DNA of 42,494 nucleotides. Origin: a virus. Positions 3,415-19,902 of the stretch are shown here, one piece after another (the first letter of the stretch is position 1; each line of letters begins with the position of its first letter). The stretch covers positions 1 through 42,494 of IMG/VR virus record IMGVR_UViG_3300044712_000988; one strand, 5' to 3'. The notes beneath the pieces are model-generated. The model did no database searches. It saw only the letters and a list, made by a program, of their open reading frames with translations, and was not told where the DNA came from. A program made the position numbers and the translations under genes.

Positions 3415-3942
3415 ATGGATATGCCGCCAGGTGTCCGTGAACGGATGATGCGCGGTTCCTGTTATTTCGAGGGACCGCGTAGAGAAGTAGAGCAGCTGCC
3501 GTCGGCCGGCGCGGAATTTATCAAAATGGAGCCGAAAGGCTCGGTCTTTACGGGGGAAGCGATGGCTGTTAAATGCTCGGTTGCTGGATGCACGAAACAA
3601 AGCCAAAAGGGTGCCAATGGCATGTGCTGGGGGCATTGGCGTGAAAAGACCGGCACTCCGAAGAAGAAAAGCGGAATAAAGCCTGTTTCATCAAGCACTG
3701 CGCCGCCCCAGTCTCCTGCAAAGCCGGCGGTACCCGCTCCGGTTGCCGCCACCCCCCCCCCTGCTGCCTCTCCGGAAAACTCCCCTCAAGGTCTGAATTC
3801 CCTTATCCCTCCAGTATCGGGCTATACCCTGGACATTCCGCAAGGTCTGCTCGACCGCATGGAAGAGGCCGGGGTCTGGCCGGCCGATGTTATCACGCTT
3901 ATCGAAATGCTGCTTGATGGCCGCCTGCGGCGGGTTGCGTAA
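3415..3942 (+). CDS. Hypothetical protein with Cys/His cluster and Pro/Ala linker, 175 aa
   Basis: Three parts are visible. Residues about 1-48 are unassigned. Residues 49-75 hold a possible zinc site (KCSVAGC, then MCWGHW) as in small phage zinc-binding modules. Residues 90-125 are a low-complexity Pro/Ala linker, encoded by a C-rich run near 3751. The C-terminus (IPQGLLDRMEEAGVWPADVITLIEMLL) is helical. An internal ATG at 3562, preceded by GGGGGAAG, could be the true start, giving 126 residues that begin at the Cys cluster. Function unknown; location before the primase suggests a replication accessory role, inferred only. Confidence 0.5.
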   Translation: MDMPPGVRERMMRGSCYFEGPRREVEQLPSAGAEFIKMEPKGSVFTGEAMAVKCSVAGCTKQSQKGANGMCWGHWREKTGTPKKKSGIKPVSSSTAPPQSPAKPAVPAPVAATPPPAASPENSPQGLNSLIPPVSGYTLDIPQGLLDRMEEAGVWPADVITLIEMLLDGRLRRVA

Positions 3943-4316: not shown

Positions 4317-5317
4317 TGGGGTGGGCACTGGAACACCTGGGGTCTGAGCGCTGCCGCCAGATCGCCGAAGGCCTTATCCGGGTGGAGAAGGTTTACGGCT
4401 ACAAGCTGCACGGCTTTTGCCCGGTGCACGGCGACCAGAAATCCGCGTCGGCCTTTTACAATTTTTCGCAGGATTCAGGCGGCTGCCAGTCGTGCGGCGA
4501 GAAGTGGGACCTGGTCAAGTTGTGGTGCCTGGTCAACGGCCATGACGCCCAGGACCTGAAATCGTTCCGGGAGGAGTTCGACAACGAGTATGCCGGACCA
4601 TCGCCCGGCAGGAAAAAACCGGCCAGCGGGCAACCTCCGCGGCCGAAATTTCCCACCCCGCCCCCTGCCCCCCAGGCGCCTGAGGTGTTCGTCGCCGAGA
4701 CTGAACTGCAGGCGCTCCCGCCTTTGCCGGAAGAGACGATCAACATGCTGCGCAGGGTGCGCGGCTGGACTCCGGCCGTGATCGAGGAGATGGGCCTCCG
4801 CCAGTTCATCGATGCTAAGAAGAATGAGCGGATTGCGATGCCGGTGCGGACGGATGACGGGCAGCTCGGCAATATCCGGCTGTATCAGCCTGGTGCCCAG
4901 CAGTTCAAGATTATTTCCTGGTTCGACAGGAAGTGCCCGCACTGCGGCGGATCCTGGAAGATCGTGAAGAAGGCGAAGACCTGCAAGGATTGCGGCAAGA
5001 GCCCGAACGATTATGGCCGCGCCCGGCTGTATCCGCCGCCGTCGCAATGGCGGCCGGGCACTCTCTGGCTGTGCGAGGGTGAACCGGACATGCTTTGCGC
5101 CAGGTCGAACGGTCTGAACGCGACGACGCAGACGGCCGGTTGCGGCACCTGGCCGGAAGAGTTTACCGAGTACATGGCGGGGCGCGACGTGGTGATCTGT
5201 TACGATGCGGATCATGCTGGTTTCCGGGGGGCGCACAAGGCGGCCGAGTCTATCGCGCGCCTGGCCAAGTCGGTGCGAGTGATCGTCTGGCCGACGTTGA
5301 TGGGGGTTGCTGAGTGA
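4316..5317 (+). CDS. Phage DNA primase: zinc finger plus TOPRIM domain
   Basis: Makes primers for phage replication. The N-terminal zinc site is C35, H38, C57, C60 (FCPVHG ... CQSCGEKW), as in CHC2-like primases. A Pro-rich linker (about 100-120) follows. A second zinc pair is at C207/C210 and C223/C226. The TOPRIM metal-binding residues are E254 (LCEGEPD) and D297/D299 (ICYDADHAG). At 333 residues it is short for a primase-helicase because the helicase is a separate gene starting inside its stop codon (GTGA at 5314). The expected primase tail motif (NHGQDLTDWF) is found at the start of the helicase product instead. Confidence 0.85.
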   Translation: MGWALEHLGSERCRQIAEGLIRVEKVYGYKLHGFCPVHGDQKSASAFYNFSQDSGGCQSCGEKWDLVKLWCLVNGHDAQDLKSFREEFDNEYAGPSPGRKKPASGQPPRPKFPTPPPAPQAPEVFVAETELQALPPLPEETINMLRRVRGWTPAVIEEMGLRQFIDAKKNERIAMPVRTDDGQLGNIRLYQPGAQQFKIISWFDRKCPHCGGSWKIVKKAKTCKDCGKSPNDYGRARLYPPPSQWRPGTLWLCEGEPDMLCARSNGLNATTQTAGCGTWPEEFTEYMAGRDVVICYDADHAGFRGAHKAAESIARLAKSVRVIVWPTLMGVAE

Positions 5318-6897
5318 CTCCCTCCCCTCCCTCATGCTATCCGAAGAACCACGGCCAGGACCTGACTGACTGGTTTGTCAAGCACGGCCGGAGCGTTGCC
5401 GACCTGACCGATCTCCTGGCCCATGCGATTACCATCGAGGAGGAAAAGCAGGCCCCTGATGCCGGGGTGTTGCGCTTCTTTCGTGGCCGGAAGTTCATGC
5501 CGGCGCTTCTGGCCAAGGCCATCATGGAAGACATCGATGTCATATCTGACCCGTTGACGGGCCTGGTGTATCGCTGGGAAGGGCGCTACTGGGAGGAATA
5601 CGGCCGGGACCATATCGAGCAGAAGGCGCTTTTGATGCTGGGTGAGGAAGGCAACTCGGCGAAGGCGGCGGACGTGGCTAACATGATCTGCAAACTGTCG
5701 ACGCTGCCGATCGGCAAGAAGATGAATGACCACCCGGACCTGATCTGTCTGGAGAACGGCATGCTGAACCTGAGCACGGGCGCCCTGGTGGAACCGGCCA
5801 AGGAATACTATGCCTCGTACATGCTGCCGGTCACGTTCGATCCGAAGAATATCCAGGACTGCCCCCGCTGGAAGCTGTTCCTGGATGAGGCTGTCGTCGA
5901 TCGGGCGGTGATTCGGGAGATCCAGAAGTTTTTCGGCTACTGTCTGACCCGGGAGACGAAGTACGAAAAGATGATGATCTTTTACGGCCCCGGGGGAGAC
6001 GGCAAGTCGAAACTACTGAAGATCCTTAAGGCCCTGGTGGGTGCGAAGAACTGCACGCATATCCCCATGGGCCGGCTGGAGGATCAGTTCTACCTGTCGA
6101 AGCTGGTGGGTAAGCTCCTCAACACGTTCACCGAGGTGGAATCGAAGGCGATGCAAAGCCAGGAGATCAAGGCGATCGTCTCGGGTGATCCTATCTCGGC
6201 ATCGTTCAAGAATGAGACCCCTTTCGACTTCGAGCCCTATTGCAAGCTGGCTTACAGCACGAACAAGCTGCCGAAGATGCTGGACAATTCGGACGGATTC
6301 TTCCGCAAGATCATGATCGTGGAGATGACCCGGCAGTTCGTTCGTATGGGTATGGCTGATATCGACCTGGAGGGGAAGCTCCTGGAGGAGTTGCCCGGCA
6401 TCTTCGCCTGGTCCCTGGCCGGACTGGCTGCCTTGCGAGAAGACAAGGGGTTCGGTGAGCCCGAGCAGATGAAACGCAGCCTGAGCGAATACAAGACGGT
6501 CAACAATAACGTGCTCTACTTCATCCATAAGCACGTCCAGGAGGATCCGGACGGCAAGGAACTGAAGTCGGGTACTGGGTGCGTTTACGACGTCTACACG
6601 AAGCGCTGCCGGGAATGGAACCTCCCTCCCTTTGGCGAGCCGCACTTTCTCAAGGAATTCGCGCGACTGTTGCGGGACATGGGCATCAAGGTCCGCGATG
6701 GGAAGAAGGACATTGTCTCCAGTGCTGCCGGCATCTCGAAGCGCGCAAATTGTTATTGTGGGTTTACTCTCGTCGACGAGAAGTCGGAGGAGGAGTCCGC
6801 CCCCGTTTCCCCCGCTCGCCGGAGGCCCGCCATGAGTGAGATAGCAAGGGTCGTGCCGACCGCGTTTTTGTCCGGGATGTCCGGGATGTCCGGGTAA
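5314..6897 (+). CDS. Replicative helicase, D5/SF3 (P4 primase C-terminal) family
   Basis: A 527-residue ATPase. Residues 1-35 resemble the tail of TOPRIM primases (KNHGQDLTDWFVKHGRS). A D5 N-terminal-like region follows (about 100-200). Walker A is GPGGDGKS at 225-232, Walker B-like LLNTFTEVE at 268-276, and the SF3 sensor region follows (AYSTNKLPKML). The C-terminus (HFLKEFARLLRDMGI) is a winged-helix-like end. The last residues SGMSGMSG are encoded by three TGTCCGGG repeats of the downstream iteron-like cluster. GTG start, coupled to the primase. Predicted to unwind DNA at the phage origin. Confidence 0.88.
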   Translation: MTPSPPSCYPKNHGQDLTDWFVKHGRSVADLTDLLAHAITIEEEKQAPDAGVLRFFRGRKFMPALLAKAIMEDIDVISDPLTGLVYRWEGRYWEEYGRDHIEQKALLMLGEEGNSAKAADVANMICKLSTLPIGKKMNDHPDLICLENGMLNLSTGALVEPAKEYYASYMLPVTFDPKNIQDCPRWKLFLDEAVVDRAVIREIQKFFGYCLTRETKYEKMMIFYGPGGDGKSKLLKILKALVGAKNCTHIPMGRLEDQFYLSKLVGKLLNTFTEVESKAMQSQEIKAIVSGDPISASFKNETPFDFEPYCKLAYSTNKLPKMLDNSDGFFRKIMIVEMTRQFVRMGMADIDLEGKLLEELPGIFAWSLAGLAALREDKGFGEPEQMKRSLSEYKTVNNNVLYFIHKHVQEDPDGKELKSGTGCVYDVYTKRCREWNLPPFGEPHFLKEFARLLRDMGIKVRDGKKDIVSSAAGISKRANCYCGFTLVDEKSEEESAPVSPARRRPAMSEIARVVPTAFLSGMSGMSG

Positions 6898-8029: not shown

Positions 8030-9115
8030 GTGAAATTATCGGTTACTCGTGACAGCTTCAAAGAGGTCCTCGACGGGCTGTATAAGATCGTCGAGAAGAA
8101 ATCAACCTTCCCCGTCCTGTCGCACCTGCACCTGCGAACCGATGAAGATATCCTGGAGGTATGCGCCACGGACCTGAACATCCGTAAGAGCGTGCGGATA
8201 GAAGCCATCATCGATGAGCCCGGGGAGGCGCTTCTCCCCGCGACAATCCTGCGGGACATGGTTTCCGCTGCCTCCCTGGAGAGGATCGAGATCGAAACTA
8301 TCGGCGGACACCGGGTCGCTGCCAGCGCCGGGGAATACCTGGTCAAGATTTCCGGCCTCGATCCTGCCGAATTCCCGCAACCGCCCGCCGATGCCGCCGA
8401 AGAAACCATCGAGATCGAGGCGAAAGACCTGCAGGATATGGTCAATGCCTGCGGATATGCCGCGTCCCGGGACGATTCCAAATGCCATATCAGCGGTGTC
8501 CGCCTCTCCAGCCGCGCCGGGATAGCCTATGCCACAGCCACCGACGGCAACCGGCTTTCCGTGGCCGGCAAACGGCTGCATCAGGCGCTTTCCCTTCCCG
8601 TCACCGTTCCGGTCAAAGGTATGGAAGAGATCCTGCGCCTCGACGACGCTCCCGTTTCCGTGACCCGGGGGGAGAGATACATCGGCCTGACCCAGGGGGG
8701 AATGAGCGTCACCATCCGGCTCCAGGAAGGAGAATTCCCCGATGTTGCCCGGGTGATCCGTTCCGAAAGCCCCGTCATGGTCACCCTGGACGGCCCGGAT
8801 TTCCTCGCCGCGGTCAAGAGGACCGCGTTGTTCGGCAGCAAACAGAAACTCACCCTCTCCATCCAGAAAACATTCATCATCCTTTCCGCCGGGAACAGTG
8901 AAAACGAGGCCACAGATTCAGTCGAATGCGACCTCCACGGGGATCCCCTCGACATCAGCTTCAACGCCCGGTACCTGATCGAGGCCCTTTCCGCGCTCCC
9001 TGTCGGCGATATCTTCCTCAACCTTTGCGACGAAACCTCGGCCGTGGTCATCATTCCCGGTAACATGGCCGGTTGGGATGAGCGCCTGTGCGTCATCATG
9101 CCCATGCGGAGCTAA
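8030..9115 (+). CDS. dnaN: Phage-encoded DNA polymerase III beta subunit (sliding clamp)
   Basis: A 361-residue full-length clamp covering all three DnaN domains. The start (MKLSVTRDSFKEVL), the domain 2 segment (AYATATDGNRLSVAGK, matching the ATDGHRL signature) and the end (VVIIPGNMAGWDERLCVIMPMRS, matching the MPMR-type C-terminus) are diagnostic. GTG start with GGAGGGG about 6 bases upstream. The clamp encircles DNA and tethers polymerases. No phage polymerase or clamp loader is visible, so it would have to be loaded by, and compete for, host proteins. It sits between replication and packaging genes on the same strand, 1 base ahead of the small terminase gene. Confidence 0.92.
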   Translation: MKLSVTRDSFKEVLDGLYKIVEKKSTFPVLSHLHLRTDEDILEVCATDLNIRKSVRIEAIIDEPGEALLPATILRDMVSAASLERIEIETIGGHRVAASAGEYLVKISGLDPAEFPQPPADAAEETIEIEAKDLQDMVNACGYAASRDDSKCHISGVRLSSRAGIAYATATDGNRLSVAGKRLHQALSLPVTVPVKGMEEILRLDDAPVSVTRGERYIGLTQGGMSVTIRLQEGEFPDVARVIRSESPVMVTLDGPDFLAAVKRTALFGSKQKLTLSIQKTFIILSAGNSENEATDSVECDLHGDPLDISFNARYLIEALSALPVGDIFLNLCDETSAVVIIPGNMAGWDERLCVIMPMRS

Positions 9116-10602: not shown

Positions 10603-12663
10603 ATGTCCAACCTCGCCCACAAACTTCCCGATCCTCCCCCCCGCGACTTCACCTGGCTCCCGGGAGAGATCGAAGTGCTCCGCAAAAAAGAGCCACTCCC
10701 CAATGGCGCTGCCGACTGGGCACCGCGGCACCGTGTCATCTCCCGGTCCTCACGCCCCGGCCCCTATCGCCACGAAAACTCCCCCTACTTCTACGGCCTC
10801 ATGGTCCTTTACTCCCGGCCCTGGCTCCGTGAGCTCACCCTCTGCGCCGGGTCCCAGCTCGGCAAGACCGACGGCCTCCTCTACAACACCCACGGCTACG
10901 ACGTCCATTACGATCCAGGGGATACCCTCTTCGTCATGCCCACCCGGGACACCACCAAAGACGTCTCCCTCGACCGCGTCGACGACATGTACGACAGTTG
11001 CGACGTGCTCCGGGCCATGAAGAGCCGCAACCCCGACGACACCAGCATGACCCGCAAGAAACTGCGCAACGGCGTCGTCTCCTACTTCGGCTGGGCCGGT
11101 TCCGATGCTGTCCTCGCCTCCAAGCCCATCAAGTACGTCAAGATCGACGAGGCCGACCTCGTCGGCCGGCGCTCCATGAACCTGGCCCGCGCGCGCTTCC
11201 GCACCTTCCGCCACGAATACAAATTCATCGCCGTATCCAAGCCCTCCTACGACGACGGCCCGATCTGGGAAGACCTCAACGCCTCCCATGCCATCTTTGA
11301 CTTCCATGTCGCCTGCCCCCACTGCGACCACGACCAGGTCATGAACTTCGCCCAGTTCCGCTGGACCGAAGGGGTCACCGACCCCCGAAAGATCGAGATG
11401 ACCGGCGATGCCTGGTACGAATGCGGCGAATGCGGCAAGCCCTGGAGCGAGTACGACCGCGACGAAGCAGTCAAGGCCGCCATGCAGGATGGCGAATACG
11501 GCGGGTGGAAGCCCCGCCAGTTGTGCGCCTGCTGCGATATCCAGATGGTAGACGGCCGTTGCCCCAAGTGCCGCGGCGAAGAGGCCGCCCCGATCCCCGC
11601 CGAACCCGAGCATGCCGGGGCGCACCTGCCCGCCTTCTATTCCCCCTACGTCCTCTTTGCCGACATCGTCGCCGATTACCTCCGCTACCTCCAGGACCCG
11701 GCCGCCCGCGAAAACGAAAAGACCCCCAGCAACGCCGAGAAATTCTGGTGCGACGACTGCGCCCTCCCCATCCGCACCAGCCAGGACGGCGAAACCCTCA
11801 GCGAACAGACCCTCTACGATCGCCGCGAATGGTACAGCCCCAAAGGTGCCAGGTGGGAAATCCCCCTGGCGGCCGCGCTCCTCACCGCCTTTGTCGACGT
11901 CCAGGGCAACCGCCTGGAGATCGAGGTCGAAGCCTGGGGGATGAAAAAAGAAAACTGGGGGATCTGTCATGAAGTCCTGCCCGGCAACCCGGAAAAAGAA
12001 GAAGTCTGGCGGGACCTCGAAGAGCGGTTTCTCGAACGCACCTGGCGCCACGAGTCCGGCGTCGAGATGACCATCACCGCCCTGGCTGTCGATTCCGGCT
12101 ACCTCCCCGACATGGTCTACAAATTCGTCAAGAAGTGGCGCAAGCGGCGCAAGGTCTACGCAACCAAAGGTTGGGCCATGCCGGGCAAGCCGATCAAGGG
12201 CAAACCCTCCATGAACAACAGCTACAAAATCCCCGTCTACATGATCGGCACCGAAGCGGCCAAAGACACCATCTTCGGCTGGCTCGACGTGGCCGAGCCC
12301 GGCCCCTACTACCGGCATTTCTCCCGGGCCTATGGCTACGAGTTCTTCCGCCAGCTCTGTAGCGAAGAGGGCAAAACCAAAAAAGACAAGCGCGGCCGCT
12401 CCGTCAAAGTCTACGAGATCCGCAAAGGGTACAACCGGAACGAAGGCCTCGACCTGGTCGTCGGCAACCTGGCGGCGTACGAGATCCTGAATCCCGTCAT
12501 GGAGCGCCTGGTGGAAAACCTCAAGGCCGGCGGCACCGGCCGGCGACCAAAGGTCAAAGACAGCGACAACGAGTCCCGAGTCACAAGTCACGAGTCCCGA
12601 GTCCCGAGCCCCGAGTCCCGAAACTCAACCGGCGAGCGTGGCCGGCCGAACTGGAGGAAATAA
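10603..12663 (+). CDS. Terminase large subunit, GpA family
   Basis: The 686-residue packaging motor. Walker A is AGSQLGKT at 82-89 and Walker B VKIDEAD at 179-185. Two zinc clusters follow (CPHCDHD with CGECGKPW, then CACCDIQ with CPKCRGEE), as in lambda gpA relatives. The C-terminal nuclease part is visible as FVDVQGNRLEIEVEAWG and ALAVDSGYLPDMV, carrying the acidic metal ligands. It packages DNA into the prohead through the portal and cuts it to length. The last 35 residues are translated from a 7-bp-period repeat (12571-12626), giving an SRV/ESR-rich tail unlike the rest of the protein and probably dispensable. Confidence 0.93.
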   Translation: MSNLAHKLPDPPPRDFTWLPGEIEVLRKKEPLPNGAADWAPRHRVISRSSRPGPYRHENSPYFYGLMVLYSRPWLRELTLCAGSQLGKTDGLLYNTHGYDVHYDPGDTLFVMPTRDTTKDVSLDRVDDMYDSCDVLRAMKSRNPDDTSMTRKKLRNGVVSYFGWAGSDAVLASKPIKYVKIDEADLVGRRSMNLARARFRTFRHEYKFIAVSKPSYDDGPIWEDLNASHAIFDFHVACPHCDHDQVMNFAQFRWTEGVTDPRKIEMTGDAWYECGECGKPWSEYDRDEAVKAAMQDGEYGGWKPRQLCACCDIQMVDGRCPKCRGEEAAPIPAEPEHAGAHLPAFYSPYVLFADIVADYLRYLQDPAARENEKTPSNAEKFWCDDCALPIRTSQDGETLSEQTLYDRREWYSPKGARWEIPLAAALLTAFVDVQGNRLEIEVEAWGMKKENWGICHEVLPGNPEKEEVWRDLEERFLERTWRHESGVEMTITALAVDSGYLPDMVYKFVKKWRKRRKVYATKGWAMPGKPIKGKPSMNNSYKIPVYMIGTEAAKDTIFGWLDVAEPGPYYRHFSRAYGYEFFRQLCSEEGKTKKDKRGRSVKVYEIRKGYNRNEGLDLVVGNLAAYEILNPVMERLVENLKAGGTGRRPKVKDSDNESRVTSHESRVPSPESRNSTGERGRPNWRK
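12571..12626. repeat. Heptad repeat inside the 3' end of the large terminase gene
   Basis: Eight tandem 7-bp units of the form GAGTCCC, GAGTCAC, AAGTCAC, GAGTCCC, GAGTCCC, GAGCCCC, GAGTCCC, GAAACTC. It is the same kind of degenerate short-period array seen between the late genes, here read as codons. Seven is not a multiple of three, so consecutive units are read in different frames. Confidence 0.85.
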
Positions 12664-12666
12664 AAC

Positions 12667-12906
12667 ATGACACGTCCGTCAACCTTGGCCCGCGAACCGC
12701 AACGATCAACCTGCAACGTTGAGCAGGCCCGCGAAAAACTGTGCCGGGACAAGCCGCCGTCACGCCAGCACATCTACAACCTGTTCAACCGTGGGGATCT
12801 GGAGGGGTACTTTGTGGGAGACGGCCGGGGGCTGCGGATATTCGTCGATTCCATCGAGGCGTACCGGTTGCGGCAGACGGGAGAAGCGTTGATGGGGGCA
12901 TCATGA
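12667..12906 (+). CDS. Small HTH/excisionase-like DNA-binding protein, 79 aa
   Basis: GGAGG precedes ATG 12667. Residues 17-70 fit a MerR/excisionase-type helix-turn-helix with wing (VEQAREKLCRDKPPSRQHIYNLFNRGDLEGYFVGDG, then LRIFVDSIEAYR). Such genes are common next to terminases. The role is probably DNA binding, either regulatory or in packaging. It is the last phage gene before the integron; its stop (12904-12906) marks the left limit of the inserted region. Confidence 0.6.
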   Translation: MTRPSTLAREPQRSTCNVEQAREKLCRDKPPSRQHIYNLFNRGDLEGYFVGDGRGLRIFVDSIEAYRLRQTGEALMGAS

Positions 12907-13149
12907 AGGTTTTACAGAGTTGGGAGAACGTGGCGGCGGATGAGCGGCCCCCGCGCAGCGGGAGACCGTTTCTATCCGCTGGTTCGGCGCGCCTGCCGTT
13001 GGCTAAGATGACCATGTTCCTGGCGCGCCGGGGAAATGATTCATCGGTGGCAATCGCGGGCCGGACTAGCGAACTACAGTTCTCAGGGGTTGATTTTAAA
13101 GCGCGCGCAGTTGACTTTGGTTCAGACCGCGTAGCGGAAAGGAAAGTAT
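12907..13149. other. Left boundary of the integron; candidate attI region
   Basis: These 243 bases have no convincing gene. A frame opens at ATG 12903 for 96 codons, but its product is compositionally unremarkable and overlaps the first cassette. If cassettes enter at the 5' end of the array, attI must lie here. Candidate core sites are GTTGACT at 13111-13117 (6 of 7 bases of GTTRRRY) and GTTCAGA at 13121-13127. The stretch also holds inverted copies of two pieces of the first attC (12928-12950 and 13089-13107). The text ACCGCGTAGCG at 13127-13137 recurs in attC3 (14942-14952). Confidence 0.4.
12928..13107. repeat. Left inverted copies of attC1 segments
   Basis: Positions 12928-12950 (begins GAACGTGGCGG) are the exact reverse complement of 13741-13763, and 13089-13107 (begins GGTTGATTTT) of 13718-13736. 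A shorter third match joins GTTCGGCGCGCCT near 12984 to AGGCGCGCCGAAC near 13785. On the right the first two pieces are almost adjacent; on the left they are split by about 138 bp, so one side has an insertion or the other a deletion. Confidence 0.8.
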
Positions 13150-13527
13150 ATGAAAGCATGCCCATTTTGTGGACAACTGCCAATTCAGTGTGACGAGCCT
13201 GATTTTTGGCGAATATTGCATGCGGATGATTGCTGGATAGTTTCTACTGGTCAAATTACAGAGGAATGTTGCCAGTATATAACTTGCAAACAGGACGCCG
13301 ATAGTTGGAGTAAAAGAGTGTGTGAACAGGGTTGTGAACTGGCCAAAAAAGAGAAGGCAGTTAGGTCGGCATACAACGATTTGCTAAAGCGTGTCCACTT
13401 TGACGAAACAACCCCGCCGGGCGAGAGGTGGCACATCATGGCGATACTGGGAGAGCTGATGCAGGAGAACAAGCTCTTAAAGTACGAGAATGCTGCGCTG
13501 AATATACTCAACGAAGGCGGAGAATAA
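13150..13527 (+). CDS. Cassette A gene 1: Lar-like zinc ribbon with helical tail, 125 aa
   Basis: Starts MKACPFCGQLP, the hallmark opening of the Lar (restriction alleviation) zinc-ribbon family, with AAGGA a few bases upstream. A second cysteine set follows (EECCQYITC, RVCEQGCELAKK). Residues 65-125 form a long helical segment (AVRSAYNDLLKRVHF, ILGELMQENKLLKYENAAL) absent from plain Lar proteins. Codon use is more AT-rich than the phage late genes, consistent with cassette import. Lar from the Rac prophage modulates type I restriction; the same role here is inference. Confidence 0.6.
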   Translation: MKACPFCGQLPIQCDEPDFWRILHADDCWIVSTGQITEECCQYITCKQDADSWSKRVCEQGCELAKKEKAVRSAYNDLLKRVHFDETTPPGERWHIMAILGELMQENKLLKYENAALNILNEGGE

Positions 13528-13529
13528 TT

Positions 13530-13691
13530 ATGAAACCATGTCCGTTCTGTGGAGGCAAGGAAACCTACGTAGACCATGTCGTTATCGATGACGGATACGT
13601 GTATTTCCGCGTTTGCAAGAAATGCGAATGCGAAGGGCCTGTGGCTGATAGTGTGGAAGGAGCAAAAAAGAAATGGGATGAAAGGGTTTAA
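13530..13691 (+). CDS. Cassette A gene 2: Lar family protein, 53 aa
   Basis: MKPCPFCGGKETYV, then FRVCKKCECEGPVADSVEGAKKKWDERV, is a complete Lar-type single zinc ribbon (CPFC ... CKKC) with the usual EG-A-KKWDER end, at the family's typical length. It starts 2 bases after the previous stop. The TAA stop lies inside the first base-paired box of attC1 (GTTTAAC, 13686-13692), as expected for a cassette gene. Predicted to protect incoming phage DNA from host restriction, by analogy to Lar. Confidence 0.75.
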   Translation: MKPCPFCGGKETYVDHVVIDDGYVYFRVCKKCECEGPVADSVEGAKKKWDERV

Positions 13692-13838
13692 CGCCTTTAT
13701 CGGGCTGAAAGCCCGATGCGCGCTTTAAAATCAACCTTTAGCCGCTCATCCGCCGCCACGTTCGGCACGACGAGCGGAGCGAGGCGCGCCGAACGGGTTG
13801 CCGGTGTGCGGCCTGACCGCACCACTGGCGGGTTATGC
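13686..13838 (+). other. attC: attC1 (end of cassette A), unusually long
   Basis: R'' GTTTAAC at 13686-13692 matches RYYYAAC exactly; R' GTTATGC lies at 13832-13838. Flanking pairs AACGCC (13690-13695) and GGCGGGTT (13827-13834) form the outer stem. Inside are a perfect ATCGGGCT/AGCCCGAT hairpin (13699-13717) and a GTTCGGC/GCCGAAC pair. The length of 153 bp is above the usual range and suggests a composite site or an insertion between the arms. Confidence 0.65.
13718..13763. repeat. Right inverted copies matching 12928-13107
   Basis: GCGCGCTTTAAAATCAACC (13718-13736) and the 23 bases at 13741-13763 are exact reverse complements of 13089-13107 and 12928-12950. Together with the left copies they bracket cassette A, which could make it a separately mobile or invertible unit. 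Confidence 0.8.
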
Positions 13839-13865
13839 CCGTCAGGTGCCACGGAGAAAATGAAG

Positions 13866-14054
13866 ATGACCTATCCAAAAATTAAACAGTGCCCTACATG
13901 TGGAGAATCTGGAGACAATCTGAGTGTCTACACCTACGATAGCGGCGGAAGGCATGTCGAGTGCAACAAGTGCCACTATCTCGGCCCGTGCGGAGGAAGC
14001 ATCTTATCCGCGATCCGGTTGCATAACGAACGCTGCACGAAAGGACAGCCATGA
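13866..14054 (+). CDS. Cassette B gene 1: zinc-ribbon protein, Lar-like, 62 aa
   Basis: Start ATG 13866 is preferred over 13860 because GGAG (13853-13856) is then 9 bases away. Motifs are IKQCPTCGESGD, then HVECNKCHYLGPCGG and a helix (SAIRLHNERC), matching the CPxC...CxxC...GP layout of Lar-like ribbons. The cassette begins with TTATGC right after the attC1 crossover point. It ends in an ATGA overlap with the DUF551-like gene, so the cassette carries two coupled genes. Confidence 0.6.
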   Translation: MTYPKIKQCPTCGESGDNLSVYTYDSGGRHVECNKCHYLGPCGGSILSAIRLHNERCTKGQP

Positions 14055-14299
14055 ACGGATGGATAGCAACAAAGGATCGTCTGCCAGAAGATGGCCAAGA
14101 AGTGACCATACGGATGATGCACGGACAGATTAAGCAGGTTGTCAGGGATCGGACGTATGCAGGCGGATGGAAACAGGTGAATTGTCAGGGGTGGGAGATT
14201 GTCACCTGGCACGCAGATACCGTCACGCATTGGCGACCAGAAATATTTGACCGGCCAGCTAAAACCGGCCCAGAGAACGCGCCCTGGATGAGGGCATAA
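14051..14299 (+). CDS. Cassette B gene 2: DUF551-like protein, 82 aa
   Basis: MNGWIATKDRLPEDGQEVTIRM ... VTHWRPEIF has the W-I---RLPE-G--V start and VTHW-P end that define the DUF551 family, common in phages and prophages and of unknown function. The C-terminal 20 residues run toward attC2, and the TAA at 14297-14299 lies in its R'' box. Coupled to the zinc ribbon before it. Predicted soluble. Confidence 0.75.
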   Translation: MNGWIATKDRLPEDGQEVTIRMMHGQIKQVVRDRTYAGGWKQVNCQGWEIVTWHADTVTHWRPEIFDRPAKTGPENAPWMRA

Positions 14300-14354
14300 C
14301 GATCAAGCTGACCGGCGCGGGTTCATCGCGTCCGTGTCGGGCGGCTTGTTATGA
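14294..14354 (+). other. attC: attC2 (end of cassette B)
   Basis: A classic 61-bp attC plan: R'' GCATAAC (14294-14300), L'' CAAGC (14304-14308), L' GCTTG (14344-14348), R' GTTATGA (14348-14354). The central arms CCGGCGCGG (14312-14320) and CCGTGTCGG (14332-14340) pair over nine positions with two G-T wobbles. Imperfect pairing with conserved ends is the feature recognised by IntI on the folded bottom strand. Confidence 0.85.
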
Positions 14355-14366
14355 TGGGAACCACCG

Positions 14367-14927
14367 ATGATTTCAGTCTTATTTGCGAGAGCAGACAGCA
14401 ATTACAAGACGATCCCTGACGTGGATGTGTGGGACGCTGAACGTGACGCCCTCACTTGGCCGGGAGGTACTCCAGTTGTGGCACATCCTCCCTGCCGAGC
14501 ATGGGGGCGGCTGCGGCACTTCGCCAAGCCGAGACCGGATGAAAAGGCGCTGGCGTACTTTGCGATTGAGGCCGTGCGGAAGTTCGGCGGGGTTCTGGAG
14601 CATCCGGCCAGCTCAACACTTTGGCCGGATGCCGGATTGCCTGCACCTGGCAAACGGGATCAGTTCGGCGGGTGGACGCTCGGAGTTAATCAGCATTGGT
14701 GGGGACACCGGGCGGAGAAAAAAACTCTGCTTTACATTTGTGGCGTTGAGCCCCGCGACATTCCGCCCCTGCCGCTCCGATTGGATGATCCAACACATAT
14801 TGTGGGATCGAGCCGGCGCAAGAGCGCAATTCGGTTGCCGGAAGTTTCCAAGGCTGAGCGGGAGCATACTCCACCAGATTTCGCGGTCTGGCTGGTGGAA
14901 TTGGCAAGACGTTGCAGACCATCATAA
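14367..14927 (+). CDS. Cassette C: phage-type protein with PPC motif, 186 aa
   Basis: Contains VVAHPPCRAWGRLRHFAKP and later GGVLEHPASSTLW, a combination I associate with a protein family frequent in phage genomes. PPC and LE-P are reminiscent of motifs IV and VI of cytosine-5 DNA methyltransferases, but no SAM-binding motif I is visible, so activity is doubtful. Other landmarks are FGGWTLGVNQHWWGHRAEKKT and a C-terminal KAEREHTPPDFAVWLVELARRC. It starts 18 bases after the attC2 crossover and its TAA (14925-14927) lies in the attC3 R'' box. Function unknown. Confidence 0.65.
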   Translation: MISVLFARADSNYKTIPDVDVWDAERDALTWPGGTPVVAHPPCRAWGRLRHFAKPRPDEKALAYFAIEAVRKFGGVLEHPASSTLWPDAGLPAPGKRDQFGGWTLGVNQHWWGHRAEKKTLLYICGVEPRDIPPLPLRLDDPTHIVGSSRRKSAIRLPEVSKAEREHTPPDFAVWLVELARRCRPS

Positions 14928-14984
14928 CGGCTACGGCGTGTACCGCGTAGCGAAGCGGAGACGGACACCACGCCGTGGTTATGT
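14922..14984 (+). other. attC: attC3 (end of cassette C)
   Basis: R'' TCATAAC (14922-14928) and R' GTTATGT (14978-14984) enclose a strong stem ACGGCGTG (14933-14940) with CACGCCGT (14969-14976), plus an inner CCGC/GCGG pair. Length 63 bp. The ends match those of attC1 and attC2 (ATAAC...GTTATG), showing one family of sites served by one integrase. Confidence 0.85.
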
Positions 14985-15007
14985 CCGTCTTTTGACAGGA
15001 GTAACTT

Positions 15008-15379
15008 TTGGAAACTGGTAAAGCTCATGATTGCCCAGCTATTTGCAATGACGATTGCGCCAACTGCTGCCATAACCCTCCGCTTACCAAGGATTGGGAG
15101 TGCGGAAAGTGTGGTGCGCGGTATATGGCGAGGGCAACGGCTGAACGTTGTTGTGGCAACAACCGTCCTAAATATTGGGGCGACAACCATCATTATTACA
15201 AATGGCGCATTGATACCGTCGAGGTGGTGGAGTACGCCCATCGCCAGTTTTATGGCGGCTTGTACCATTACAGATTTAAAACGAGGCCGGAAGCGGATGA
15301 AGCATTGGACCGCCTCAACCATCGCCAAAAATGTGAGGTGGTGGAAATTCGGAACTGGCGGCGAAAATCAGAGGCATAA
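15008..15379 (+). CDS. Cassette D: Cys-rich zinc-binding protein, 123 aa
   Basis: TTG start at 15008, with AGGAG at 14997-15001. The N-terminal 60 residues are dense in cysteine (HDCPAICNDDCANCCHN, WECGKCGARYM, AERCCGNNRP), consistent with two zinc sites. The C-terminal half has aromatic and basic residues (HHYYKWRIDTVEVVEYAHRQFYGG, FKTRPEADEALDRLNHRQ). TAA (15377-15379) lies in the attC4 R'' box. The family is not recognised; nucleic-acid or protein binding is plausible. Confidence 0.6.
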   Translation: METGKAHDCPAICNDDCANCCHNPPLTKDWECGKCGARYMARATAERCCGNNRPKYWGDNHHYYKWRIDTVEVVEYAHRQFYGGLYHYRFKTRPEADEALDRLNHRQKCEVVEIRNWRRKSEA

Positions 15380-15412
15380 CAATCATTATCCCCCTGGACT
15401 GGCATGATAGTT
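15374..15412 (+). other. attC: attC4 (end of cassette D), short or degenerate
   Basis: R'' GCATAAC (15374-15380) is identical to that of attC2. AAC-A-ATCAT (15378-15386) pairs with ATGAT-A-GTT (15404-15412) around TCC/GGA, so a symmetric stem exists. The R' box would be GTTTTTA rather than GTTATG, and the span is only about 40 bp. It is either a worn last attC or an attC truncated when joined to the intI leader, whose ribosome site (AAGGAGG) starts at 15415. Confidence 0.5.
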
Positions 15413-15428
15413 TTTAAGGAGGATTGTC

Positions 15429-16466
15429 ATGAACACAGCAAGAAAAACGAACCTTTACCACCTCCCGCCGCGTGATAACCTGGCACCGAAAAGCGGACAG
15501 CAGATTAAAAAAGAGCAACTGCTCGACAAGCTCGCCAAAGCCATCCGCCTGAAGCATTACTCCCGGGAGACGGAACGGTCCTATGTGAATTACGTGGCCG
15601 CGTTCATCGATTTCCGCATGAAGCGCAGATCCGGGACCGAGGGGGCCGCGGCCATCGAGGAATACCTCACCTACATGGCCCTGGAGAAGAAGGTTGCCGC
15701 CTCCACCCAGAACGTCGCCTTCAATGCCCTGCTCTTCTTCTACCGCCGCGTGCTCGGCGTCGAGCCGGGCGAGATCAACGCCTGCCGTGCGAAAAAACCA
15801 CAGCGCCTGCCCGTCGTCTGCACCCGCGAAGAAGTTGCAGCCATCCTCGACCATCTGAAAGGCGACGCCTGGCTGGTGGTTGCCCTCCTTTACGGTTGCG
15901 GCCTGCGGGCCGAGGTAGATGGCCTGTCCCTCCGGGTCAAAGACATCGACTTCGGCCAACGCACCGTCACCATCCGCGAAAGTAAGGGCGGCAGCGCCCG
16001 GGTGCTCTCCTTGCCGGAACAGTTGCACGAAAGGCTCCAGCGCCACATACAAAAGGTCAAGGCAATCCACGAAATGGATCTGCGCGAAGGATGGGGAGCG
16101 GTCGAGCTGCCCGGCGCCCTGGCCCGGAAATACCCGAACGCCAACAAGGAATTCGGCTGGCAGTTCCTCTTCCCGGCTGCCACCCGCTGGACAGACAAAG
16201 AAACCGGCCGGCAGGGCCGTCCCCATATTCACGAGACGGCAATTCAAAAGGCTGTCAAGTCCGCCCGGATCGCCGCCCGGATCTACAAGCACGTCACCCC
16301 GCACACCTTTCGGCACAGTTACGCCACACACCTGCTCGAAGACGGCGAAACCATCCGCACCGTCCAGGAGCTGCTCGGCCACAAGAGCGTCAAGACCACC
16401 ATGATCTACACCCATGTCATGCAAAAGAAATCCTCCGTTCGCAGCCCGTTAGATAGACTGCTGTAA
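15429..16466 (+). CDS. intI: Integron integrase IntI (tyrosine recombinase)
   Basis: A 345-residue recombinase that catalyses attC x attI and attC x attC exchange. The SAM-like N-domain has the IntI wording [19 protein letters not shown] (31-49). Catalytic residues R160 (GCGLR), K186, H292 and R295 ([13 protein letters not shown]), H318 (LLGHKS) and Y327 (MIYTHV) are all present. Residues about 214-250 ([21 protein letters not shown], then WQFLFPA) form the extra segment found in IntI and absent from XerC/D and phage integrases. The C-terminus VRSPLDRLL matches class 1 IntI (VRSPLD). AAGGAGG precedes ATG 15429. It lies downstream of, and parallel to, the cassettes, and is followed by phage head genes. 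Confidence 0.93.
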
Positions 16467-16547: not shown

Positions 16548-16781
16548 TCTCCTTTTGACACCCTCGCAGAAGTCAACACGCATCTGACGGCCGCCAAAGC
16601 CGCCCTGATCGACCTCATGTCCGGCAAAGAGGTCCGCCTCAGCGTCGGCGGCGGCGACCGCACCTACAAGACCGAAGACCTCGACAAACTCCAGGCGCAC
16701 GTCGCCTTCCTTTCCAAAGAGCGGGCCAAGTTCCTGAAAACCAACCGCCCCGTCACCGTCCAGGGGAGGCCCGCCCGATGA
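16542..16781 (+). CDS. gpW-like head-tail joining protein, 79 aa
   Basis: Length and position (directly before the portal gene) match lambda gpW. The sequence MISPFDTLAEVNTHLTAAKA, then LIDLMSGKEVRLSVGGGDRTYKTEDLDKLQAH fits the gpW pattern of helix, beta hairpin and helix. gpW stabilises packaged DNA and forms the platform for tail attachment. ATGA overlap with the portal gene. The start codon is embedded in a perfect hairpin, which may regulate its translation. Confidence 0.75.
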   Translation: MISPFDTLAEVNTHLTAAKAALIDLMSGKEVRLSVGGGDRTYKTEDLDKLQAHVAFLSKERAKFLKTNRPVTVQGRPAR

Positions 16782-18358
16782 AGCGCCCTCTCCTGAAAGT
16801 CAACACCTGGGACCGGTTCGTCGGCATCACTAACCCCGAGAAAGCCCTCCGCCAGGCCAAAGCCCGCACCGCCCTCAACTTCATGGCCGGCACCGTCTCC
16901 CGCACCGGGGCCGGTACGAAAGGCACCCTCGGCAACTGGTTCGTCCGCCGCCTCTCCCGGTTTACCGAGTCATGGGAGCGGACCCGCACCACCGATCGCG
17001 CCGAAGACCTGATCGCCAACAACCCCTACGCGGCATCCATCGTCGATTCCACCGCACTCAACGTCGTGGGCGGGACCGGCCTTATCCCCCAGTCCCGCCC
17101 CAACTGGAAAGTGCTCGGCATAACCGAAGAGCAGGCGCAGGCCATCTCCGACCAGGCGGAATACTGGTTCAACGTCTGGGCCGACCGGGCCGGCGCCGAA
17201 GGCGAGAAGTTCGCCGATCTGCAATACACCACCATGCACACCATGGTCGGCCGGGGCGAATACCTCAACCTCCCCGTCTCCCTGGAGACCGGACCGAACC
17301 GGGACTTCAACCTGGCAATCCAGATCCTCGATCCCCGCCGCCTCCGGACCCCCTACAGCGCAGCCGTCGACCCGTTCGTCCGCGACGGCATCAAGCTCAG
17401 CCCCCGCGGCGAAAAGCTCATTTACTACATCGCCAACCCCGACGACGGCCTGCTCACCGTCAACCTCAACAGCAACCAGTTCGAGCCGGTCCCCGCCTGG
17501 CGGGCGCACCGCCCCGGCATCCTCCACGGCTTCATCAAGAAAGACCCCGAGCAGGTGCGCGGCCTGCCGTCGCTCGCCACCTGCATGAAACAGTTCCGCG
17601 ACTTCGACGACTACATGGACTTCGAAGTCGTGGGGGCCATCCTCGCCGCCTCCTTCCCCGTCTTCATCGAGACCCCCGACGGCGACGAGCCCGAAGACTA
17701 CATCGGCGAAACCGAAGCCGGGGGCACCCTGGACCGCCCGGTCAAATACAAATCCTACGAGCCCGGCCAGGTCATGTACGGTTCCGCCGGGCAGAAACCC
17801 AGCGTCCTGAAAAGCGAGCGCCCCGGCAACTCCTTCCCGATCTTCGTCGAGGTCATGCAGCGGATGTTCGGCGTTGCCGGCCTCCTGCCGTACGAGATCG
17901 TCACCAAGGATTTCAGCAAGACCAATTACAGCAGCGCCAAGGCCGCCCTTAACGAAGCCTACCGGATCTTCATGCTCTACATCTGGCACCTGATCAACCA
18001 CCATAACCACCCGATCTGGTCCATGGTCTTCGAAGAGTCCTGGCTGCGCGGCCGGATCAAACTGCCGAAGAGCGCCCCCGATTTCTACCAGGCCCGGGCC
18101 GCTTACTGTGCCGCCAAATGGATCCCGCCGAAACGGATGGTCCTGGACGAAGTCAAGCAGGTTGCCGCCGGCAAGGAAGAGATCATCAGTAACATGGGCA
18201 CCCTGGCCGACTGGTACGCCGAGCAGGGCGAGGACTGGCAAGAGCAGCTCCGCCAGATCGCCCGCGAACGCCAGGTCATGAAAGAGCTCGGCCTGACCAT
18301 GGCCGACATGCCCGGTTTCGATTTGAAGGGGCTGGCAACGCAGCCGGAGAGGCAGTAA
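16778..18358 (+). CDS. Portal protein, lambda gpB family
   Basis: A 526-residue portal. Typical features are AEDLIANNPYAASIVDSTALNVVGGTGLIPQ near residues 75-105, YWFNVWADRAG, and the central VMQRMFGVAGLLPYEIVTKDFSKTNYSSAKAALNEAYR (about 350-390), which is diagnostic of lambda-type portals. The dodecameric ring forms the DNA channel at one capsid vertex, docks the terminase and later connects the tail. Its end is followed by a heptad-repeat spacer. Confidence 0.93.
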   Translation: MKRPLLKVNTWDRFVGITNPEKALRQAKARTALNFMAGTVSRTGAGTKGTLGNWFVRRLSRFTESWERTRTTDRAEDLIANNPYAASIVDSTALNVVGGTGLIPQSRPNWKVLGITEEQAQAISDQAEYWFNVWADRAGAEGEKFADLQYTTMHTMVGRGEYLNLPVSLETGPNRDFNLAIQILDPRRLRTPYSAAVDPFVRDGIKLSPRGEKLIYYIANPDDGLLTVNLNSNQFEPVPAWRAHRPGILHGFIKKDPEQVRGLPSLATCMKQFRDFDDYMDFEVVGAILAASFPVFIETPDGDEPEDYIGETEAGGTLDRPVKYKSYEPGQVMYGSAGQKPSVLKSERPGNSFPIFVEVMQRMFGVAGLLPYEIVTKDFSKTNYSSAKAALNEAYRIFMLYIWHLINHHNHPIWSMVFEESWLRGRIKLPKSAPDFYQARAAYCAAKWIPPKRMVLDEVKQVAAGKEEIISNMGTLADWYAEQGEDWQEQLRQIARERQVMKELGLTMADMPGFDLKGLATQPERQ

Positions 18359-18421
18359 GACGTGAGACGTAAGACGTTAGAAGTGAGACGTTACGTCTTA
18401 CATCTTACATCTCCCGTCTCA
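18359..18421. repeat. Heptad repeat spacer with two complementary arms
   Basis: Five GACGTGA-type heptads (18359-18393) are followed by four of the complementary CGTCTTA type (18394-18421), so the RNA can fold into a long imperfect hairpin (for example GTGAGACG with CGTCTCAC). It separates the portal and protease genes. Confidence 0.85.
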
Positions 18422-18450
18422 CTGCCTAACAAGTTTACGGAGTAAACAAA

Positions 18451-19902
18451 ATGCGCCTGATCGACATCGTCAACGGCCCCTGGGCCATCCTTCCGGAAAC
18501 GCACCGCGAGATACAGGACATCTACGTCCGGCACCTCAAGGGCGAGAAGATCGATGTCAAGAGCCTCGACATCCAGAAGAAAGACCCGCTCGCCTCCCCT
18601 GCCCTGGTGGCTGCGGCTGCCGAGCGCCAGGCCGAGAACCGGGGCACCTACCTGGTCGTCGACAACGTGGCCGTCATCCCGGTGCACGATGTCATCGCCA
18701 AGCGGATGACCTTCTTCATGGAGATCTGCGGCGGCACCTCCAGCCAGATCCTCATGCGCGACTTCGCGGCCGCCCAGAACGACCCCTCCGTCATCGGGAT
18801 CATCCTCTACTTCGACACCCCCGGCGGCACCGTCGACGGCACCATGGAGGCGTCCGAGTTCATCCAGGGATACCAGGGGCAGAAGCCGGTCGTCGGCTTC
18901 ACCGACGGCATGATCGCCTCCGCCGGGGTCTGGATCGCGGCCCCCTGTGACAGCATCTACATCTCCAGCAACACCAACCCCATCGGCTCCATCGGCGTCG
19001 TGGCCGCCCACGTCGACGTATCCAAGCGGATGGAGATGTTCGGACAGCGCGTCACCGAGATCACCGCCGGCGATTACAAGCGGGTCGCCTCCGCCTATTC
19101 CCCCCTGTCCGACGAGGGCCGGGCCTACATCCAGGCGCAGCTCGACCATATCTATACCGCCTTTACCGATGCCGTTGGCAGCAATCGCGGCCTGTCCGTC
19201 GATGATCACAAACAGTGGGCGGACGGGCACATATTCCTTGGCTCGCAAGCCATCGAGGCAGGTCTGGTGGACGGTGTCTCCACCCTCGACGACCTGATCG
19301 CCGAAATGGCCGCCGGCCGGATGAAACCGAAGCAACCCATACAGCCGCAGCAAAAACAGCAACAGGCGCGGGCCGGTGTCGCCCGGGTCGAAACCACTTT
19401 GACAGAAGGAGAGACCACCATGACAAGAGAAGAGTTTCAGGCGAAGCACCCCGAGCTCTTTCAGGCGATCCTGGAAGAGGGGCGGGCAGCCGCGGCCGCC
19501 ACGACCGGCGAAGCGGTAGCGGCCGAAACGGGCCGGGTCCTGGCCCTGGTAACTGCCGCGTTCGGCGACGAGCCGGGCAAAAAGTTCGCGGCCGCCGCGG
19601 CTAGGGGACTGACCGCCGACGATTTCCAGGCCCTGGGCATCAGCTTCACCGGTTCCGCCGACAAGACCGAAGGCGACGAAGCCAGCCGCTCTGCCATCCT
19701 CAAGGCCATTCAGGATGCAGGCCAGCAGCCGCTCAAAACCACCAAGGGCGAAGAGGCCGAAAAAGACTTCATGACGCTCGTGAAAGAGCACCAGGCGGCC
19801 AATGCCGACTGCTCCATGGCCGACGCCATGAAGGCCGTCACCGAGAAACACCCGGAAGCCTATGCCGCCTACATCGCCAAAGCCAACGAAGGGAGGAACT
19901 GA
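18451..19902 (+). CDS. Head maturation protease (S49/SppA-type, lambda gpC-like) with C-terminal scaffold
   Basis: Residues about 65-290 form an S49 peptidase: GIILYFDTPGGTVDG, catalytic Ser157 in IASAGVWIAA, then NPIGSIGVVAAHVDVSKRMEMFG and catalytic Lys210 in AGDYKRVASAYSPLSDEG. After a Gln-rich linker (about 294-308) comes a scaffold-like helical domain, which can also be made separately from an internal ATG at 19420. The enzyme acts inside the procapsid, removing scaffold and trimming the portal. Total length 483 residues fits gpC plus Nu3 in lambda-like phages. Confidence 0.92.
   Translation: MRLIDIVNGPWAILPETHREIQDIYVRHLKGEKIDVKSLDIQKKDPLASPALVAAAAERQAENRGTYLVVDNVAVIPVHDVIAKRMTFFMEICGGTSSQILMRDFAAAQNDPSVIGIILYFDTPGGTVDGTMEASEFIQGYQGQKPVVGFTDGMIASAGVWIAAPCDSIYISSNTNPIGSIGVVAAHVDVSKRMEMFGQRVTEITAGDYKRVASAYSPLSDEGRAYIQAQLDHIYTAFTDAVGSNRGLSVDDHKQWADGHIFLGSQAIEAGLVDGVSTLDDLIAEMAAGRMKPKQPIQPQQKQQQARAGVARVETTLTEGETTMTREEFQAKHPELFQAILEEGRAAAAATTGEAVAAETGRVLALVTAAFGDEPGKKFAAAAARGLTADDFQALGISFTGSADKTEGDEASRSAILKAIQDAGQQPLKTTKGEEAEKDFMTLVKEHQAANADCSMADAMKAVTEKHPEAYAAYIAKANEGRN
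19420..19902 (+). CDS. Nested scaffold protein (Nu3-like), 160 aa
   Basis: ATG 19420 is in frame within the protease gene and has its own GAAGGAG (19405-19411) 8 bases upstream. The product (MTREEFQAKHPELFQAILEEGR, then Ala-rich helices and AEKDFMTLVKEHQAANADCSMADAMK) is a helical, acidic scaffold-type protein. Lambda makes Nu3 from exactly this kind of internal start, so free scaffold in excess over protease-scaffold is expected here. Confidence 0.75.
   Translation: MTREEFQAKHPELFQAILEEGRAAAAATTGEAVAAETGRVLALVTAAFGDEPGKKFAAAAARGLTADDFQALGISFTGSADKTEGDEASRSAILKAIQDAGQQPLKTTKGEEAEKDFMTLVKEHQAANADCSMADAMKAVTEKHPEAYAAYIAKANEGRN

Follow-up and report, generated by a model that had tools for sequence, protein, structure and literature searches.

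What kind of element sits between the terminase and portal genes of this phage genome, and is its gene cargo directed against host defence? The question is raised by a stretch of 42,494 nucleotides of viral DNA (IMG/VR virus record IMGVR_UViG_3300044712_000988, referred to here in its full length as the window), in which the array genes under study occupy positions 13150-15379. An initial annotation had read these six genes as integron cassettes, at least three of them Lar-like zinc ribbons, and had taken the array for a swappable anti-defence store. We consider it probable that the locus is a phage-resident integron, with an integrase (IntI) of phage-only type, reversed cassettes that are read with the phage operon, and a changeable accessory cargo. 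The stronger and newer result is this phage-only integron lineage with reversed cassettes, more than the claim about Lar cargo.

An integron in the window

All six open reading frames (ORFs) are real and lie on the + strand. Recombination sites were sought on both strands of 4 kb of the window with an attC covariance model, R1, trained on 33 attC sites, all from bacterial arrays. The features of the array are as follows.

12923-12988, - strand: tentative distal attC remnant; R1 9.4 bits, too weak for reliance
13150-13527, + strand: gene 1; begins MKACPFCG, otherwise an orphan
13530-13691, + strand: gene 2, Lar family; PF14354 36.6 bits (cut-off 28.6), TIGR03655 46.3 bits (cut-off 39.6)
13788-13838, - strand: attC left of gene 3; R1 9.5 bits, rank 3 in 4 kb; arm alignment by inspection, extra base on the expected arm
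13860-14054, + strand: gene 3, weak Lar-like zinc ribbon; PF14354 16.2 bits, under the cut-off; phrog_599 'Lar-like', E 4e-6
14051-14299, + strand: gene 4, DUF551; PF04448 30.5 bits (cut-off 22)
14294-14354, - strand: attC between genes 4 and 5; R1 30.6 bits (E 2.5e-5 in 4 kb), 9.4 bits on the + strand
14367-14927, + strand: gene 5, C5-DNA-methyltransferase-like fold; phrog_12600, 254 bits
14922-14984, - strand: attC between genes 5 and 6; R1 14.3 bits, rank 2 in 4 kb, canonical polarity
15008-15379, + strand: gene 6, Cys-rich, TTG start, outside known families
15375-15425, - strand: attI, adjoining the start of intI; core G^TTATGC (- strand), junction at 15377/15378
15429-16466, + strand: intI, integron integrase; TIGR02249 400.6 bits (cut-off 265), PF00589 109 bits, PF13495 78 bits

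The integrase gene is complete and lies directly 3' of the cassettes, and the alignment of its product to the integron-integrase-specific model TIGR02249 (residues 31-344) covers the entire 315-position model. The adjacent attI has a G^TT crossover. Across seven loci, pairwise identity is 95% over the 13 nt on the intI side of its junction and 29% over the 13 nt on the side of the cassettes; the conserved block ends at C|AAC, and the sequence past the junction is variable. Read on the - strand, the junction presents the conserved block, G^TTRRRY and then variable sequence, which is the signature of an attI in its normal place.

The three expected attCs rank first to third in the 4 kb on both strands, and all are on the - strand. 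They delimit three attC-bounded segments at 13838-15377, the genuine cassettes, and the initial reading of the genes as cassettes therefore holds for these segments, which stand beside an intact integron integrase; genes 1 and 2 form the left part of the array, and an attC at the far end of this part is only tentative. A strict attC finder based on arm complementarity only missed most sites, and folding of single sites gave ambiguous hairpins; arm alignment and the covariance model were used instead. An Rfam search of the array region of the window gave no match. In two different phages (L003, 5745-5858; L005, 1520-1611; comparison loci carry L numbers), codons for the signal peptide of a small lipoprotein coincide in part with the 3' arm of an attC.

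Of 36 R1 matches in held-out loci, which are almost entirely bacterial, 35 have an attC polarity away from intI. All 13 matches in intI-bearing viral loci, and all five in the viral loci L009 and L010, share this polarity. These matches indicate that the attCs of the phage arrays have the canonical polarity with respect to intI.

A phage-only integrase clade

Relatives of the window IntI at 77-86% identity are present in six other viral contigs, and another, at 77%, in L011, a Mu-like phage contig by its genes (GemA, Mor, Mu portal), binned with a deltaproteobacterial genome. L011 was one of the best 80 loci retrieved from 84,980 species; the other 79, kept as the bacterial comparison set (L012-L090), do not exceed 54% identity to the window IntI. 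A quick tree places seven phage IntI in a single group with support 98, which the two further viral IntI of L009 and L010 join with support 99.

The phages that host this clade differ. The window and L003 are lambda-type phages with gpA terminase and portal genes; in L002 a large primase gene adjoins intI, L004 and L005 having similar ORFs; and L011 is Mu-like. The position of the integron differs by phage type, and therefore the integron has moved between phages. Judged from sequence, the integrase is a member of a phage-only clade that is present at differing positions in unrelated phages. That intI is itself a cassette was considered and ruled out: in L003 the intI stop overlaps the next phage gene, and no attC follows intI.

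Among the six viral contigs, L007 keeps only the last ~27 IntI residues and attI, a decayed integron (1622-1752) beside a short C5-methyltransferase cassette gene. In the window, a serine recombinase gene at 41078-42280 on the - strand (PF00239, PF13408) probably encodes the phage's own integrase, so lysogeny does not need intI.

Cassette genes read toward the integrase

Orientation was scored per segment for the main ORF between attCs. In bacterial arrays 54 segments have this ORF pointing away from intI and 6 have it pointing toward intI, whereas in phage arrays it points toward intI in 20, away in 2 and is unclear in 2 (Fisher p 7e-12, a descriptive value, segments of the same array being non-independent). 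Family-identified genes in the arrays examined, namely Lar, DUF551, phrog_12600, N6/N4 and C5 methyltransferases, DUF4406, DUF7736 and ThyX, are without exception on the + strand, opposing attC polarity. As a control, the published phage arrays of TJE1 and Shewanella M16-3 score as canonical, and the methyltransferase cassette of TJE1, which is 47% identical to that of L003, has an attC orientation opposite to the L003 one.

The same reversal is seen around gene 5 in a sample of 80 viral contigs, all retrieved through this gene, where 28 of 29 R1 matches lie on the strand opposite gene 5. Gene 5 is a cassette in seven other viral contigs: it is flanked by attC on both sides, 3-34 bases away, in L095, L112, L115, L120 and L155, and on one side only in L096 and L141, and its orientation is reversed in all seven. 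A terminase is present in L112, L120 and L141. A search for integron integrases in the eight gene-5 records with attC matches found none in seven and a weak recombinase match in the eighth. Because longest-ORF counting is unreliable in GC-rich contigs of clusters of attC sites lacking integron integrases (CALINs), only homology-identified genes were counted there: gene 5, methyltransferases and a queuine-tRNA-ribosyltransferase-like gene.

Insertion of cassettes through the wrong (top) attC strand is rejected as the origin of the reversed genes, because attC polarity would turn too. The genes are, on sequence grounds, inverted inside the cassettes, and cassettes, intI and neighbouring phage genes share one reading direction. 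The usual, though not strictly defining, integron layout, in which promoterless genes are read outward from attI, is thus not the one seen here, where the ORFs read toward attI and intI. Within the window array, no promoter-like site was seen on the + strand, which is weak evidence. A cassette gene in the canonical orientation, in L002 (4604-4894, - strand), seems on inspection to have a near-perfect sigma-70-like promoter that contains the palindrome ACGTAGCGCTACGT; a promoter of its own is as expected if the gene must be read against the operon. Searches of open-licence papers turned up no account of an integrase clade restricted to phages, nor of reversed-cassette arrays.

On this basis the following mechanism may be suggested. 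New cassettes would be integrated by IntI at attI, immediately ahead of intI, and their transcription would depend on read-through of the phage operon that lies upstream, with no integron promoter involved. A pool of 'reversed' cassettes would remain after selection for genes that run in the same direction, and, with less assurance, the cargo may be a set of phage accessory genes whose membership changes.

Cargo of the arrays

Gene 5 is the most informative cassette of the window. The initial annotation's description of it as a PPC-motif phage protein is borne out by phrog_12600. Folded with 36 relatives, it gave an AlphaFold2 model with a predicted local distance difference test score (pLDDT) of 92, and all 50 of the best-matching solved structures are C5 DNA methyltransferases (VIA Z 8.1-9.7); a Foldseek comparison of the model with M.HaeIII gave E 1.9e-4. 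The predicted structure thus has the C5-methyltransferase fold, and it shares this fold with M.HaeIII, M.HhaI and DNMT3A across its whole 186 aa. H40, P41, P42, C43 and E78 are invariant in 37 sequences, and the invariant PPC and downstream Glu occupy positions resembling motifs IV and VI of these enzymes. However, gene 5 differs from them in its low identity (~10-15%), shorter length, lack of a recognition domain and divergent N-terminal motif. It matches no Pfam model, PF00145 included, and its sequence profile (37 rows) has no match among PDB sequences. It may be described as a methyltransferase-like protein of unproven activity. Homologues are found in 13 of 50,697 phage records (tblastn), and at least 340 contigs of IMG/VR carry one.

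Methyltransferases or the gene-5 protein occur in five of the 24 segments of intI arrays (window, L003, L007 and two in L011). PF01555 and PF00145, searched on nine intI-bearing viral records, gave three matches, two of which are inside arrays that make up a few per cent of the searched viral sequence. L120 and L155 have cassettes for N4/N6-, N6- and C5-methyltransferases, the N6 match being just under its cut-off, and also carry the queuine-tRNA-ribosyltransferase-like cassette, of a family linked in phages to DNA modification. Near the 79 bacterial IntI loci, only N4/N6 methyltransferases match among cassette genes. DNA modification is probably the most frequent recognisable theme of the cargo and, as a weaker proposition, would guard phage DNA from host restriction. 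The idea is not new for phage cassettes, since Qi et al. (2023; PMC9892861) proposed that phage cassettes with methyltransferases overcome restriction.

The remaining cargo consists of ThyX, DUF4406, DUF551, a lipoprotein, a radical S-adenosylmethionine (SAM) protein and many orphans, and the cargo is therefore not exclusively anti-defence. In L010, a sister viral integron, a ThyX gene adjoins an attC (1620-2270; PF02511, 172.8 bits). This mixture lends some weight to the view that integron and cassettes are real and that the cargo is made up of ordinary phage accessory genes with no bias toward counter-defence; it is joined by the lack of any defence protein match for the window cassettes in PADLOC and by the occurrence of Lar and DUF551 genes also outside attC-bounded segments, in L004. 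The five methyltransferase-type segments, and the concentration of two of three PF01555/PF00145 matches in so small a part of the nine records, speak for a bias. We regard ordinary cargo as a serious possibility, somewhat short of an even chance. 'Store' is in any case too strong a word, as ThyX, DUF4406, the lipoprotein and DUF551 are not known to be connected with defence. The initial contrast with bacterial integrons is sound in that these are phage accessory genes and not resistance genes, and its DUF551-like and Cys-rich assignments for genes 4 and 6 also hold. Gene 6 has no Pfam, NCBIfam or PADLOC match and no homologue in the phage records searched.

The Lar component is smaller than was claimed. 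Gene 2 passes the curated Lar cut-offs, and genes 1 and 3 do not. Gene 3, which is 31% identical to gene 2 (E 1.7e-4), is a probable member, and gene 1 matches nothing: it has no Pfam or NCBIfam model, no convincing PHROG and no homologue in the phage records. There, gene 2 has one distant match and gene 3 none. The anti-defence character of the cargo is accordingly plausible mainly through DNA methyltransferases, and the basis of three Lar genes is unsupported. Lar-type zinc ribbons may help against restriction, but a match to the Lar family is a poor guide to function, because RalR of the Escherichia coli Rac prophage, whose equivalog model weakly matches genes 2 and 3, is reported to be a DNase toxin (PMC4147584). 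That the Lar-type proteins are toxins, nucleases or regulators rather than restriction-relief factors would follow this precedent; the scores, however, are far under the cut-off of the RalR model, and we consider such a role unlikely. Restriction evasion through DNA modification is better supported than evasion through Lar, because methyltransferases recur in the arrays of relatives.

Weighing the explanation

Several points weigh against a phage-resident integron with an anti-restriction cargo. Recombination and expression at the array are predictions from its sequence; two of its three attCs score poorly with R1 (14.3 and 9.5 bits); and L002 holds one cassette gene in canonical orientation. 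On the side of the cargo, just one window gene is securely Lar, the count of methyltransferase segments is small (5/24), the gene-5 contigs were retrieved through gene 5, and the N-terminal motif of gene 5 is unlike the FxGxG SAM motif, so its catalysis is uncertain.

The reversal itself could be an artefact if the attCs had been misread, attI lying at the left end, the cassettes being canonical and IntI recognising mirror-image attCs. The attC boxes are near-palindromic, and several phages do have a conserved element at the left end of the array. However, the bacterial-trained R1 scores the - strand in 18 of 18 matches, the junction on the intI side carries the exact attI signature, and the left end of L011 is an ordinary attC after Mor and has no conserved site, all of which makes a misreading improbable. 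Least probable of all is chance pick-up of a host chromosomal integron fragment whose cargo was whatever the host array held, which has a precedent in Vibrio phage Va_90-11-286_p16 (PMC9892861) and would agree with the ordinary integron type of the window IntI, but which is at odds with the monophyly of phage IntI in the quick tree, with the finding that, among the best 80 loci, identity above 54% occurs only in the Mu-like phage contig, with cassette genes reversed unlike those of bacterial arrays, and with the restriction of cassette-gene matches near the bacterial loci to the N4/N6 methyltransferases.

The phage-resident integron with reversed cassettes is thus the reading that we prefer. 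A broader proposal is that of a separate class of phage integrons: a phage-only clade moving between unrelated phages, with a reversed-cassette pool, operon-dependent expression, functional isolation from bacterial integrons and mainly genes for DNA modification and host evasion. We advance it tentatively, as nearly but not quite evenly balanced. Phage integrons have so far been described mostly as pieces borrowed from bacterial ones. If the proposal is true, viruses run their own cassette exchange, in a phage-only lineage with cassettes turned to fit phage transcription. Reversed arrays would then provide a direct test of whether selection on transcription sets cassette orientation, and the arrays supply a catalogue of candidate anti-restriction genes, including the compact methyltransferase-like protein of gene 5.

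Genomic surroundings

To the left of the array are the phage terminase large subunit gene and a small helix-turn-helix gene (10603-12906), and to the right are portal and protease genes (16778-19902). Two non-coding elements adjoin the integron.

13718-13794, + strand: conserved non-coding element at the distal array end, common to L003, L091 and L093
16519-16549, + strand: terminator-like hairpin just 3' of intI, 13-bp stem and T-rich tail

The distal element, which in L003 lies at 3556-3623 and is also present in L091 and L093, has a GGCGGCGGATGAGCGGCTA core with a hairpin on either side, and it resembles a hairpin together with one half of an attC in the opposite orientation. Partial inverted copies of it occur in the window at 12926-13106 (inverted repeats I1, I3 and I5). 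The terminator-like hairpin is strong and contains the start codon of the next head gene. A sliding-clamp-like gene of L003 (3399-3558) is cut short by the integron after ~52 codons, and its remainder is missing; a similar clamp-like gene is intact in the window, at 8030-9115.

Comparison with known integrons

The window integron resembles canonical chromosomal integrons (L012-L090) in IntI type, in the position of attI before intI, and in attC structure and polarity, but differs from them in that their cassette genes point away from attI (54:6) and those found here toward it. With the Treponema-type 'atypical' integrons (PMC3607928) it shares the transcription of intI and cassettes in one direction. 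In that type, however, transcription of intI runs toward attI, with the cassettes on the far side of attI, whereas here attI is directly upstream of the intI start and it is the cassette genes that are turned.

Virus Rctr41k (KX853513, L174), a phage from a methane-oxidising enrichment, likewise has an intI above the TIGR02249 cut-off (383 bits) that is co-directional with upstream genes; unlike the window, it has attC-like matches downstream on the + strand, and the two IntI are 43% identical. Its integron integrase gene, at 4692-5639, is annotated only as XerD-like.

Phage integrons and CALINs have been described for TJE1, P12002L, PH101, Shewanella M16-3 and Vibrio p16 (Qi et al., 2023; PMC9892861). 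These phages share with the window phage-borne attC cassettes, in some cases with IntI, and methyltransferase cargo, the TJE1 methyltransferase cassette being the one that is 47% identical to that of L003. In TJE1 and M16-3, however, cassette genes are normal relative to attC, whereas those of the window are reversed. The IntI of the phages of Qi et al. are 40-44% identical to the window IntI and host-like, whereas the window IntI belongs with the phage-only clade.

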